From an uncultured Pirellula sp. (GTDB lineage Bacteria; Planctomycetota; Planctomycetia; Pirellulales; Pirellulaceae): 64,000 bases of DNA. Shown piece after piece: positions 52,635 to 57,553 of this stretch. Both the position numbers and the translations under genes were made by a program. The stretch is from the NCBI GenBank assembly GCA_903892355.1, contig CAITIE010000098.1, positions 124,001 to 188,000 of the forward strand, written 5' to 3'. The notes beneath the pieces were generated by a model, which did not search any database, was not told where the DNA came from, and saw only the letters and a program-made list of their open reading frames with translations. The stretch's first letter is position 1; each line of letters starts with the position of its first letter.

Positions 52635-53525
52635 TCAGCGTAGGAAGAGGAGGATCAAGGCCCCCACGATGATGCGATAGATCGCAAACGGGAGAAACCC
52701 GTGCTTGCGAACCCAATTCATAAACCACGCGATTACGGCTAATGCTACGACGAAACTGGCTCCGAAACCGATCGCAAGCGTTACCCATTGCGATCCTTCG
52801 ATAGCGACTGGTTCTTTGATGATAAACTGAAGGAGTTTAAATCCTGCAGCCGCGAACATCACGGGAATAGACAGGAAAAAGCTAAATTCCAACGCGGCGA
52901 CTCGAGATAGGCCCATGACTTGACCACCTGCGATGGTGGCCATCGATCGGCTGGTGCCTGGAAAGGCGGCGGCCAGGATTTGTGCGGAACCGATCGCGAT
53001 CGCTTGCTTCAATGACATACTCTCCATGGTCGACGTGGACGCCTTGGCAGAGAACGCTCGGTCGATGAGCACCATGGCGAAACCACCGACGATCATAGCG
53101 ATGGCAATTACGGTAGGGCTTTCGAGATTCTTGTCGCTCCACTTATTGATCAGCAAGCATGGGATCGCGGTGACGATAAAGCTGATCAGGACGAGCATGA
53201 ACGGGTGTGCCATCCAATGCTTCGAGGGCGATTTCGTAGTGTCGTTAGCAGTGTCGATGTCCGTTGGATCTTGGTTGGTCGAAGAGCCTCGTAGGGAGTT
53301 CCAAAATGAGTGCGCGAACTCCAACAAGCGTTGTCGGAAATAGACCACGACGGCGAGGATCGCACCGAGTTGGATGACGACCGTGAACATTTTCCAAAAC
53401 GGGCTCGTCAGGTCGGTACCCAAGAGCTTTTGGCAAATCACGATGTGCGCCGTCGAACTGACCGGAAGGAACTCGGTGAGCCCTTCGACGATACCGGCGA
53501 TCAAAGCGACGAGGTAATCCGACAT
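52635..53525 (-). CDS. uppP: Undecaprenyl-diphosphatase UppP (BacA)
   Basis: LIAGIVEGLTEFLPVSSTAHIVICQKLLG; IGSAQILAAAFPGTSRSMATIAGGQVMGLSR. Confidence 0.95.
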   Translation of the reverse strand: MSDYLVALIAGIVEGLTEFLPVSSTAHIVICQKLLGTDLTSPFWKMFTVVIQLGAILAVVVYFRQRLLEFAHSFWNSLRGSSTNQDPTDIDTANDTTKSPSKHWMAHPFMLVLISFIVTAIPCLLINKWSDKNLESPTVIAIAMIVGGFAMVLIDRAFSAKASTSTMESMSLKQAIAIGSAQILAAAFPGTSRSMATIAGGQVMGLSRVAALEFSFFLSIPVMFAAAGFKLLQFIIKEPVAIEGSQWVTLAIGFGASFVVALAVIAWFMNWVRKHGFLPFAIYRIIVGALILLFLR

Positions 53526-53585
53526 GATTTGGGTAATGGATCGAGAGTGCTTTTGTGGGGGAATCCGGGCGATTCCAAATAAAAA

Positions 53586-53614
53586 CCCGGGTTGGCGGAA
53601 ACCGCCAACCCGGG
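53586..53614 (-). terminator. Intrinsic terminator (minus strand) upstream of uppP
   Basis: Perfect 13-bp stem cccgggttggcgg (53586-53598) / ccgccaacccggg (53602-53614), 3-nt loop; followed on the minus strand by TTTTTATTT. Confidence 0.85.
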
Positions 53615-53618
53615 CTCG

Positions 53619-53876
53619 TTACTCTTCATAGTAGCTTGCAACTCGTGCGCATGTCCTAGGAAATCCCAGGATACGCCGAACTACAAGTCGGGGTCGAGGC
53701 TGCATGTCATGGGCAGCCCGCCGGCATGCCTAAGACGCCCCACCCCTTTGGCTAGTAGAACACGGATTCACTAAATCACCTCCTTTCGAAACGAGCCAGA
53801 CCGCCCTATTCGCCAGTTGCCTAGATACGGAATAATGCGGTACGGATACGCACGCTGCGATGCGTTTCGCAGCACC
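53619..53876 (-). ncRNA. Candidate short transcript / leader with strong SD and small ORF (GTG at 53771)
   Basis: Minus-strand promoter-like elements at 53883-53912, hairpin at 53854-53873, GAAAGGAGGTGA ttta GTG, 13-codon ORF then UAG with frame open to a TAA at 53619-53621 just before the terminator. Confidence 0.45.
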
Positions 53877-53882
53877 GATTGC

Positions 53883-53912
53883 ATTCTAGCTCGCGCGGGA
53901 AAGCGAAATCAA
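53883..53912 (-). promoter_or_regulatory. Candidate sigma70-type promoter
   Basis: Minus strand TTGATT (53912-53907), 18-nt spacer, TAGAAT (53888-53883). Confidence 0.45.
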
Positions 53913-54116
53913 TCACGGGTTGGAGAGAACCCGCGGAATTACCGTTCAAATACCCGAGAAACTCGGGAAATAGCGAGTGATCCGTGCCCCAGAAACTTCC
54001 TTTGAAAATCAAGTCTGGCTGGACATATCCCCGCTGGGAAGGGGATGAGAGGTGCTGAGGCGCTGTCGTCACGGGGCGTAAATTGCGGGATTTATCGGTC
54101 GCTGCAGCGGGAGCGA

Positions 54117-56663
54117 TTACTCCGGTAAAGCCAGCAATCGGGTTGCTTCTTCGTGCAAGAAACCGACGTCCATGAAGGGCTCGTAGCCGATGTCTTGCCA
54201 GCGGATACGTCCTTTCCCATCGACCAGGATTGTTCCGTGAAGCGGTTGGCCTTCGAAATCATCGAAGCAACGAAAGGACTTGAACACGTCGAGATCTGGG
54301 TTTGGAGCCAGCGTCAAATTCATTTGTCCGTCGTAGCGTTTGAGGGCTTCGGCAAGAGAGTTTGCGTTTTCCGTGCTTATGCCGACGATTTCGATTCCTG
54401 CCTGTCGGAACTTATCGGTGGCAGGAGAAAAGTCACGGAGTTGTTCGGCGCAATGGAGGCATCCGAATCCGAGGTAAAGGATCAGGATGTATGGTTTTCC
54501 TTCGAGCGACTGCGACGAGCGATCTCCGCCCGGCTGTGTGCTTGGTTGTGCAGTGACATGCCAGCGTGGAGCATTGGCAGGGGACCATCGCATGGGTCCT
54601 AATGTGTCCAGCGGTGGACGATCTCCGAGATCATTTGGCGGAGAGGGGCGAGTTCGCCACGTTTTATCCGGGACCAAGGGAGAAGCTATCGGTTGAACAC
54701 GCTCTATGAGGGTTTCATCGGGATCGCTAGCCCATGCTAAATCGAAGCAGCGTTCGGCGGCTTTTTTCCGAAGTTCCTCCCATTGGTTGAGAGACTTGGA
54801 ATCGGGTTGGCGTGTGATGGCTTCGTTGGTGATCCATGCGAGTATCGCCGCGGGCAGAATTTGCCCAGAAGTCCCATCGAACGACTGTTGGGATTGTTGG
54901 ATGGCCGTGTTGTAATCTCCTGCTTTGCAGCACCATTCCATCCGAAGGTGGGAATCTACCCAACTGCGAGTATGATTTGAGAGTCGAAGGGCTGTCCGGA
55001 AATCCCCGCGAGCGGCAGCGAGGTGTGCATCGAGAGCCGAGAGCGCAACCCCGAGTCGATGATGCCGATACTTGAGCTCGTGGATTTTGCGTTCGCGTTC
55101 TTGGACTTCGTGGCTTTCCGATTTCCATTTTTCTTGATCGAAATCCCGAGGGATGGAATCCACGAGGGACGATTCACTTTCCGACCCGTAGAGCGAATCG
55201 GGCACAGGGGCTGGATCATTCAAGGTTGGAGGCAGAATCTTTGCGGTGGATGTGTCTGGCGGTGAAATCGCCGTCCATTCACTGCGCAATCGTCTGCGGG
55301 TTTCGACAAGTGTCGTCCTCAGCGCATTGGCTTCATCCATTTTTCCAAGTTCCGCGAGCGCGATCCCTTGGAGTCCCCGCGATTCTTCATGTTCCAGCGT
55401 GTTTTCGGCCCCGTCGAGGTATCGGGATTTTGCGAGGTCGAGCATTTTTTCCCAACGGCGATACGAGCGAATGGATTGCAATAATCGTTGCCTGCCGAGA
55501 TTTGCACTGCCGTTACCATCAGGTGCGTTGTATTTGGGATGGCGAGGAAGTTCGATCATGTTTTTCGAGAGTTCGATAGCTCGCGACACGGCTCCGAGAT
55601 TCAACCAATTTCGGATAAGCCACTCATTATTGTGGGCATAGTTGTGGATTTGATCAGGCATGACCCGATCTCGCATCATGTGTGCATGATCAACGCGCGC
55701 GGATGCTTCTTGTTGCCATGCAGCATCAACGTAGCGGTTCAACCGAGAGTACGTATGGCCCGGCATATGCCACATATGCGCGATGCCTGGGGCGCTAGGA
55801 CCACACTCTGCAGCGGCGGAGATGGCTAGATCCTCTTTGCGGTAGTCCCAAAGATGGATTCGGAAGTGTTGAGCGGGATGGTGAGGGTTCGCGCGAAAGA
55901 TTTCGGATAGAAGCGCATCGATGGCAAGGTGGCTTTGGATCTCGATTCCTTGGCTTTGATTTTGCCAGTATTGCAATACCAGCATCGCTTTGACTTCGAC
56001 ATCGTTGGGATAATCCACAGCGATGTCTTCGAGCTCCTTTGCGTAATCCTTCAATCGCTGTTTCCGTCGGTCTCGAATTTCATCGGTGATGGGTGGAGAC
56101 TTCGACTTCTTTTTGTGTTTTTTCGATGTTGCATCTGCACTAGTCGCAGCTTGGTCAGCAGTGCTAGCTGCTTGTTCACTAGCGGCATCTTTTGGTGGAG
56201 TTGGCCAATCCTTGACACGTTTGCTCCATGCTTCGATCAAACGGCGTTCGATTTTATTGGTGGATTCGATCCTTCGCATCGCTTGCTCGATGAAGCCGGC
56301 TGAACGTTCGGGATTTTCGACATTCGCCCGCGCGATGCCCCAATAATGAATGGCGCAGTCCGGGTCGATTGCGGCGGCTTGCCTGAACGATCGTTCGGCC
56401 TCGAAGTACCAGAATCCATGCAATTGTGAGAGGCCTTGGTCCAGGAATCGTTGGGCCATAGGGCTCGGTGTTGAGGATTGCCAGTGGACATTGCCCATGC
56501 CTTGCATCAAGTAAGCGGCTTGGCGTGGGCCTTCATTGAAGGCTTCTGCATGGAAGGAGTGACCGGGTTGGGCACTGGCAGAATCTGGCGTTTGCGGCAA
56601 TGCAGTTGCCGCATGGCAAAGCACGAGCGCGATGGAGCTTAACGAACGTTTCAAAATGTGCAT
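54117..56663 (-). CDS. TPR-containing protein with C-terminal redoxin/AhpC-like thioredoxin domain
   Basis: Signal peptide MHILKRSLSSIALVLCHAATALPQ; TPR-like helices; C-terminal KPYILILYLGFGCLHCAEQLRDFSPATDKFRQAGIEIVGIS ... ILVDGKGRIRWQDIG. Confidence 0.75.
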   Translation of the reverse strand: MHILKRSLSSIALVLCHAATALPQTPDSASAQPGHSFHAEAFNEGPRQAAYLMQGMGNVHWQSSTPSPMAQRFLDQGLSQLHGFWYFEAERSFRQAAAIDPDCAIHYWGIARANVENPERSAGFIEQAMRRIESTNKIERRLIEAWSKRVKDWPTPPKDAASEQAASTADQAATSADATSKKHKKKSKSPPITDEIRDRRKQRLKDYAKELEDIAVDYPNDVEVKAMLVLQYWQNQSQGIEIQSHLAIDALLSEIFRANPHHPAQHFRIHLWDYRKEDLAISAAAECGPSAPGIAHMWHMPGHTYSRLNRYVDAAWQQEASARVDHAHMMRDRVMPDQIHNYAHNNEWLIRNWLNLGAVSRAIELSKNMIELPRHPKYNAPDGNGSANLGRQRLLQSIRSYRRWEKMLDLAKSRYLDGAENTLEHEESRGLQGIALAELGKMDEANALRTTLVETRRRLRSEWTAISPPDTSTAKILPPTLNDPAPVPDSLYGSESESSLVDSIPRDFDQEKWKSESHEVQERERKIHELKYRHHRLGVALSALDAHLAAARGDFRTALRLSNHTRSWVDSHLRMEWCCKAGDYNTAIQQSQQSFDGTSGQILPAAILAWITNEAITRQPDSKSLNQWEELRKKAAERCFDLAWASDPDETLIERVQPIASPLVPDKTWRTRPSPPNDLGDRPPLDTLGPMRWSPANAPRWHVTAQPSTQPGGDRSSQSLEGKPYILILYLGFGCLHCAEQLRDFSPATDKFRQAGIEIVGISTENANSLAEALKRYDGQMNLTLAPNPDLDVFKSFRCFDDFEGQPLHGTILVDGKGRIRWQDIGYEPFMDVGFLHEEATRLLALPE

Positions 56664-56720
56664 CGTAGTTTTGCAATAGGTGGGCTGCAGAGCATGGCAT
56701 CGAGTTTGAGTCGATGGGGC

Positions 56721-56792
56721 GGGGCGGGACAGTGTGGCGGGGCGGGACAGTGTGGCGGGGCGGGACAGTGTGGCGGGGCGGGACAGTGTGGC
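56721..56792. repeat. Four perfect 18-bp tandem repeats, intergenic
   Basis: ggggcgggacagtgtggc x4 between the ABC ATPase stop and the TPR gene start. Confidence 0.95.
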
Positions 56793-56800
56793 GGCGCGGG

Positions 56801-57553
56801 TCACAGTTCGGATGATGCTCGCAGCGCGGTCGCGGCAGCTTCGTGATCTGTGGTATCGGCAATGATTTTTCCATCGCGAAGGACGATATTCCGGCGAGCA
56901 TTGCGGGCGACACCGAGGTCGTGGGTGACCAGAATGACAGTCAAATTCTTTTTCTCATTAAGTTGTCGGAACAATTCGATCACTTCACGGCTTGTGCGTG
57001 AGTCTAGATTTCCGGTAGGTTCGTCACCCATCAAGATGGATGGATCGGTGGCCAATGCTCGCGCGATCGCCACACGTTGTTGCTGACCGCCCGAAAGCTG
57101 TCCGGGATGGTGATCGAGGCGTTCACCGAGACCGACGAGCGAAAGGAGTTCTTTGGCCCGATCGTGTCTCGCGCGATTGCTCATCGTTTTCCCGTAGAGC
57201 ATTGGGAGTTCTACATTCTCTAGGGCCGAGGTCCGCGCTAGTAGATTGAAGTTTTGGAAGACGAATCCGATTTGAGCATTGCGGATACGCGCTCGTTGGT
57301 CGGCAGACATGTCGACGACTTCGATGCCGTCGAGTAGATAGCTACCGTGGGTTGGTCGGTCTAGGCAGCCGAGGGTGTTCATCAGTGTTGATTTTCCCGA
57401 CCCGCTGGGGCCGATCAACGCTGCATACTCGCCTCGGTTCATGACGAGATCCACTCCATCGAGAGCGCGAACCTCGACTTCATCAAGCTTGTAGACTTTC
57501 GCGATTTCGCGAAGTTCAATCAATGGTTTGGTGGTTGGAGCGGCTGGGTCCAT
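56801..57553 (-). CDS. ABC transporter ATP-binding protein (MacB/LolD-type)
   Basis: GPSGSGKSTLMNTLGCLDRPTHGSYLLDG, SGGQQQRVAIARALATDPSILMGDEPTGNLDS. Confidence 0.93.
   Translation of the reverse strand: MDPAAPTTKPLIELREIAKVYKLDEVEVRALDGVDLVMNRGEYAALIGPSGSGKSTLMNTLGCLDRPTHGSYLLDGIEVVDMSADQRARIRNAQIGFVFQNFNLLARTSALENVELPMLYGKTMSNRARHDRAKELLSLVGLGERLDHHPGQLSGGQQQRVAIARALATDPSILMGDEPTGNLDSRTSREVIELFRQLNEKKNLTVILVTHDLGVARNARRNIVLRDGKIIADTTDHEAAATALRASSEL

Follow-up and report, generated by a model that had tools for sequence, protein, structure and literature searches.

The 64,000-nt window analysed here carries, on its minus strand just before uppP, what is almost certainly a conserved structured RNA gene, judging from comparison with its relatives, and within the predicted transcript lies a micro-ORF of 13 codons that is very probably under selection. 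A first-pass annotation of the locus had described a compact transcription unit with a small ORF, and its promoter, Shine-Dalgarno (SD) element, ORF and terminator indeed prove to be conserved together. The extent of the phenomenon is much larger than that annotation supposed, and the conservation of the element excludes chance as its source.

Anatomy, fold and distribution of the RNA gene

The whole gene spans positions 53583–53876 of the window (this and all features below lie on the minus strand), with covariance models R1 and R2 matching 53690–53876 and the terminator ending at 53583; its transcript would be about 290 nt long and would start near 53876. The putative promoter (53883–53912) consists of TTGATT at 53912–53907 and TAGAAT at 53888–53883, separated by 18 nt, and is the sole sigma-70-like match in a sequence scan of 53500–54150. 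Aligned promoters of the genus keep TTG..(17–18)..TANANT, and promoter-like sequence 5′ of 167 members has 4.0 mismatches to consensus, compared with 5.4 in shuffles. At the other end, the intrinsic terminator before uppP (53583–53617) is present as annotated, except that its stem of 16 pairs is slightly longer than the 13 bp first given; it shows compensatory changes in the genus alignment, and terminator-like hairpins follow 98 of 162 members but 0 of 162 shuffled sequences. The promoter, the 5′ hairpin, GAAAGGAGGTGAT, the GTG and the in-frame TAG all stand in the layout originally described. A second, weaker terminator-like hairpin (53914–53935) sits directly before the −35 box and perhaps ends the upstream AhpC/TSA-domain gene.

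Support for the fold comes from two alignments. The first, A4, contains 61 sequences, of which 60 come from genomes outside model building; because it was aligned to the model, and so fitted to the structure under test, it leans towards that structure in the following figures: pairing holds in 89% of cells, double changes occur in 33 of 38 pairs, double-change cells number 437 (140 in shuffled and 57–102 in slid controls), and the covariation score is 0.478 (0.163 shuffled, 0.06–0.09 slid). The second was made independently with MAFFT from genus sequences; it recovers the same set of helices, and compensation is seen in 22 of its 53 pairs. The RNA of the window also folds more stably than its shuffles (z = −5.1). 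From the 5′ end, the first helix is the P1 hairpin (53854–53873; GCTGCGA/TCGCAGC, loop AACGCA), whose seven pairs all carry double changes in A4 and are 98.8% paired; it is followed by the P2 stem-loop (53800–53841), made up of the covarying helices 2–4 of A4. The P3 hairpin (53753–53773; TAGTG/TACTA), helix 5 of A4, encloses the start codon and has 76% of cells paired and double changes in three of five pairs. The long-range helix P4 (53690–53746), formed by GGGGTGGGGCGTC and GAC..GCCTC.ACCCC, is helix 6 of A4 and appears in the genus alignment as well, with 93% of cells paired and seven of nine pairs double-changed; the end of the micro-ORF supplies its 5′ strand. A variable stem-loop 3′ of P4, P5 (53633–53688), is predicted from a single-sequence fold, and its sequence is not conserved between lineages.

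The conservation that the first-pass annotation had asked after is extensive. Among 25 same-genus genomes, the window's own included, a DNA search found the element in 22, and Pirellula species are among the named records of the group. Trained on 22 sequences from the genus, model R1 has matches in 159 of 201 genomes of the family and in 75 of 299 of the class. Model R2 draws on 66 diverse members and matches 163 of the same 201 family genomes and 249 of the 299 class genomes (222 of the 264 high-quality ones, and 127 of 155 genera). In a phylum draw R2 matches 80 of 300 genomes, many families outside the class among them, the weakest of these matches (E above about 1e-4) being tentative. Nearly every R1- or R2-positive genome holds one copy, and one copy is found in most genomes of the class. 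Neither model matches some family genomes of good quality (G078, G061, G059, G053, G082 and others); these may have truly lost the gene, carry divergent copies or have been dropped by the filter. A search of viral contigs gave no match to the RNA, and carriage by viruses was dropped as an idea; DNA-pattern matches in Blastochloris and in a deltaproteobacterial MAG have no match to R2 and were taken as chance.

The micro-ORF and its Shine-Dalgarno element

Upstream of the start codon lies the SD-like segment GAAAGGAGGTGAT (53775–53787), which occurs as a single perfect copy in the window and whose GGAGGTG core hardly varies across the class. In planctomycetes the 16S 3′ end, taken from complete relatives since the window's own MAG has no detectable 16S, reads GGATCACCTCCTTTCT, and GAAAGGAGGTGAT is its perfect complement over 13 nt, one more than the roughly 12 first noticed. 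In P5 of many members (L094, L100, L112, L117, L208 and others), 5–40 nt after P4, we observed GGATCACC or GATCACC, a stretch that copies the 16S 3′ end and has its complement in GGTGATC of the same RNA. In the L043 and L071 lineages this copy and the SD flank have changed together; the copy is enriched over shuffles, reaching p ≤ 0.05 in 29% of members. Self-sequestration of the SD by GGATCACC in P5 was rejected as a core feature, as the copy is absent in the window itself and its lineage.

The micro-ORF, MNPCSTSQRGGAS (53730–53771), runs for 13 codons from GTG (53771–53769) to an in-frame TAG (53732–53730), and conservation extends to its frame, its stop, its spacing and the QRGG core. When the candidate nearest to 13 codons is chosen per member, 165 of 167 distinct members have an ORF, 10–15 codons long in 164 of them; starts are GTG (143), TTG (19) and ATG (3), stops are TAG (83), TAA (48) and TGA (34), and the spacing from SD core to start is 5–6 nt in 159. 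The peptide consensus is M-x-x-x-C-T-S-Q-R-G-G-x-x. Codons of the QRGG core vary synonymously, with CAA or CAG for Gln, CGA, CGG, AGG or AGA for Arg and all four codons for Gly: 62 of 106 single changes in the core are synonymous against 31 expected on a tree that excludes the ORF, in a binomial test that counts parsimony changes as independent. Frames +1 and +2 show no such excess. Of the two halves for which a codon-substitution check had been proposed, the first shows this excess in the QRGG core, and the frame after the stop is not conserved. Codon-level constraint on the short ORF is confined to that core; the signal over the whole ORF is weak (omega-like value 0.78; the other frames give 1.41 and 1.16), and the codon test on members found no protein-level constraint in the N-terminal half. 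The core overlaps helix P4, so constraint on the RNA could be part of the codon signal.

How the peptide and the fold divide the labour is where the main alternatives arise. If the locus were a micropeptide gene, the 13-residue peptide would be the product and the structure would merely tune its translation, which is what a conserved SQRGG core with synonymous changes, a strong SD and a conserved stop might lead one to expect. The N-terminal half of such a product drifts, however, and P1, P2 and the pair H9/P4b described below covary strongly outside the ORF, and we regard this reading as doubtful.

The opposite view, that the RNA is purely noncoding, would have the SD-like segment pair with 16S rRNA in the manner of a 30S sponge or hibernation RNA and the ORF arise as a by-product. 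That conservation peaks in the 16S-complementary segment, that the N-terminal codons are free of protein-level constraint and that the start codon sits in a covarying hairpin are all in keeping with it. By one common rule applied to real and shuffled rows alike, however, a frame of 10–15 codons at optimal spacing is found in 95–100% of aligned members, compared with 9–32% in column-shuffled nulls that retain column composition; all three stop codons occur at the same place, and synonymous codons alternate for Gln, Arg and Gly. We consider a purely noncoding RNA unlikely. The ORF had at one point been set down as a by-product since GTG is not strictly conserved, a judgement that was reversed, NTG, frame and stop being conserved class-wide. 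A role in sequestering ribosomes is possible, but the conservation of start, frame, stop and peptide core speaks for translation of the RNA by ribosomes over mere holding of them, and on this comparative evidence the micro-ORF is probably translated in vivo.

Competing hairpins and a proposed ribosome-read switch

Five nucleotides past the stop lies the hairpin H9 (53716–53725; GCC-GGCG-GGC), which is 100% paired in A4 and whose offset from the stop has a median of +5. The GGC of its 3′ arm is also the 5′ arm of a second hairpin, P4b (53698–53718; GGCTGC...GCAGCC), so that the two share three bases and are mutually exclusive. The third shared base, y, covaries with both of its partners: when y is C, it pairs in H9 in 115 and in P4b in 95 of 120 members; when y is T, it pairs in H9 in 23 and in P4b in 20 of 25, and in these members the H9 and P4b partners both shift from G towards A. 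This three-way covariation indicates that H9 and P4b are both maintained despite excluding each other; alternatively, it could reflect a base triple.

We propose that the locus encodes a free-standing, ribosome-read RNA switch or dual-function RNA. A 30S subunit would dock on the SD and melt P3, and the translating ribosome would then unzip P4. On reaching the stop, the ribosome would, judging from known ribosome footprints, cover the 5′ arm of H9, and P4b could form. In this way the RNA would report that its micro-ORF is being translated, or would be reset by that translation. Its action as a dual-function RNA would be in trans, exerted by the RNA, by the peptide or by the two together; the lack of synteny is the one observation that suggests action in trans. 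Taken whole, this mechanism seems to us about evenly balanced between right and wrong. A broader and more tentative possibility is that the switch acts at phylum level as a housekeeping RNA and monitors what state the translation machinery is in: its 13–14 nt complement of the 16S tail would recruit the 30S subunit, the 13-codon ORF would be read, and the bistable hairpin at the stop codon would flip to give a trans output unlike that of any described RNA. To our knowledge, RNAs that are single-copy across much of a phylum are few, namely tmRNA, SRP RNA, RNase P RNA and 6S. If the ribosome-driven switch is true, planctomycetes have a dedicated RNA that reads translation. With the covariance models and the coordinates to hand, the claim can be tested directly in species that are in culture.

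Neighbouring genes and relation to known RNAs

The annotation had also offered the locus as a leader or attenuator for uppP. Its anatomy of a short ORF, competing hairpins and a terminator is attenuator-like, and, as in the trp and tna transcription attenuators with their leader peptides, the position of a ribosome on the short ORF could select between exclusive hairpins. Unlike in those systems, the terminator here closes an independent gene and no conserved regulated gene lies downstream. Flanking genes in relatives are unrelated (ammonium transporter, DUF1501, IF-3, RimK and others), neighbour orientation is random (same versus opposite strand, 30 and 34 upstream, 31 and 29 downstream), and in 60 loci no conserved same-strand downstream gene was found, the downstream neighbour lying on the same strand in 31. 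A cis-acting leader-peptide attenuator for whichever gene follows is therefore very improbable, and comparison across loci indicates that the RNA gene is free-standing and separate from uppP. In one genome (G083; L121 3193–3792) the RNA gene faces infC, which encodes IF-3; the two are convergent, and the pairing is thus probably coincidental. Programmed UAG readthrough into a longer protein, suggested by about 36 open codons past the UAG in the window, can be virtually dismissed: the run is of chance length, as had been suspected from the start, conservation of its frame fails already within the genus, all 22 genus members have the stop in one and the same position, and the wider set uses TAG, TAA or TGA there, so that the conserved pattern marks the UAG as the ordinary stop of a 10–15 codon micro-ORF.

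No match to a known housekeeping RNA was found at the locus. Rfam 15 gave no gathering-score match in the whole window and nothing credible at the locus at E up to 10. The genome's tmRNA sits elsewhere, at G000:C72, with no tmRNA match at the locus; SRP RNA and RNase P RNA were found elsewhere in the four genomes tested, neither of them at the locus; and 6S RNA (RF00013) had no match anywhere in the genome, with a model that detects only 6 of 14 controls. The RNA has apparently been missed by Rfam and by gene callers because it is structured and coding at once, with an ORF far below length cut-offs. Among the papers searched there was no earlier description of it, the Rhodopirellula-1 motif being the one candidate for identity. 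A published table (Weinberg 2010, PMC2864571) lists that motif for Proteobacteria and Planctomycetes and classes it as ambiguous, with a cis-regulatory role considered probable. Compared by this table entry alone, the two share a listing for Planctomycetes, and identity is possible.

Dual-function sRNAs are among the nearest known parallels. SgrS/SgrT and RNAIII belong to this group, whose known members have longer peptides and a far narrower distribution than the RNA described here. Bacillus subtilis SR1/SR1P and SR7P are further examples (PMC8152036). Like them, the present RNA is predicted to be a regulatory RNA that doubles as the message for a small protein; unlike them, its ORF is woven into a covarying fold across much of a phylum. 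In Sinorhizobium meliloti, the attenuator-derived RNA rnTrpL and its short leader peptide peTrpL both act in trans (PMC7298713). A very short ORF, a structured RNA and an intrinsic terminator at the end are common to both cases, and action in trans may be as well. Our RNA differs in having no biosynthetic operon behind it, with neighbours that vary, and no run of a single amino acid in the micro-ORF that would mark a starvation sensor.

Further upstream, an 895-aa ORF was called from a GTG such that its N-terminus (56715–56804, minus strand) contains four in-frame tandem copies of TLSRPA; its true start probably lies further downstream than the called GTG.
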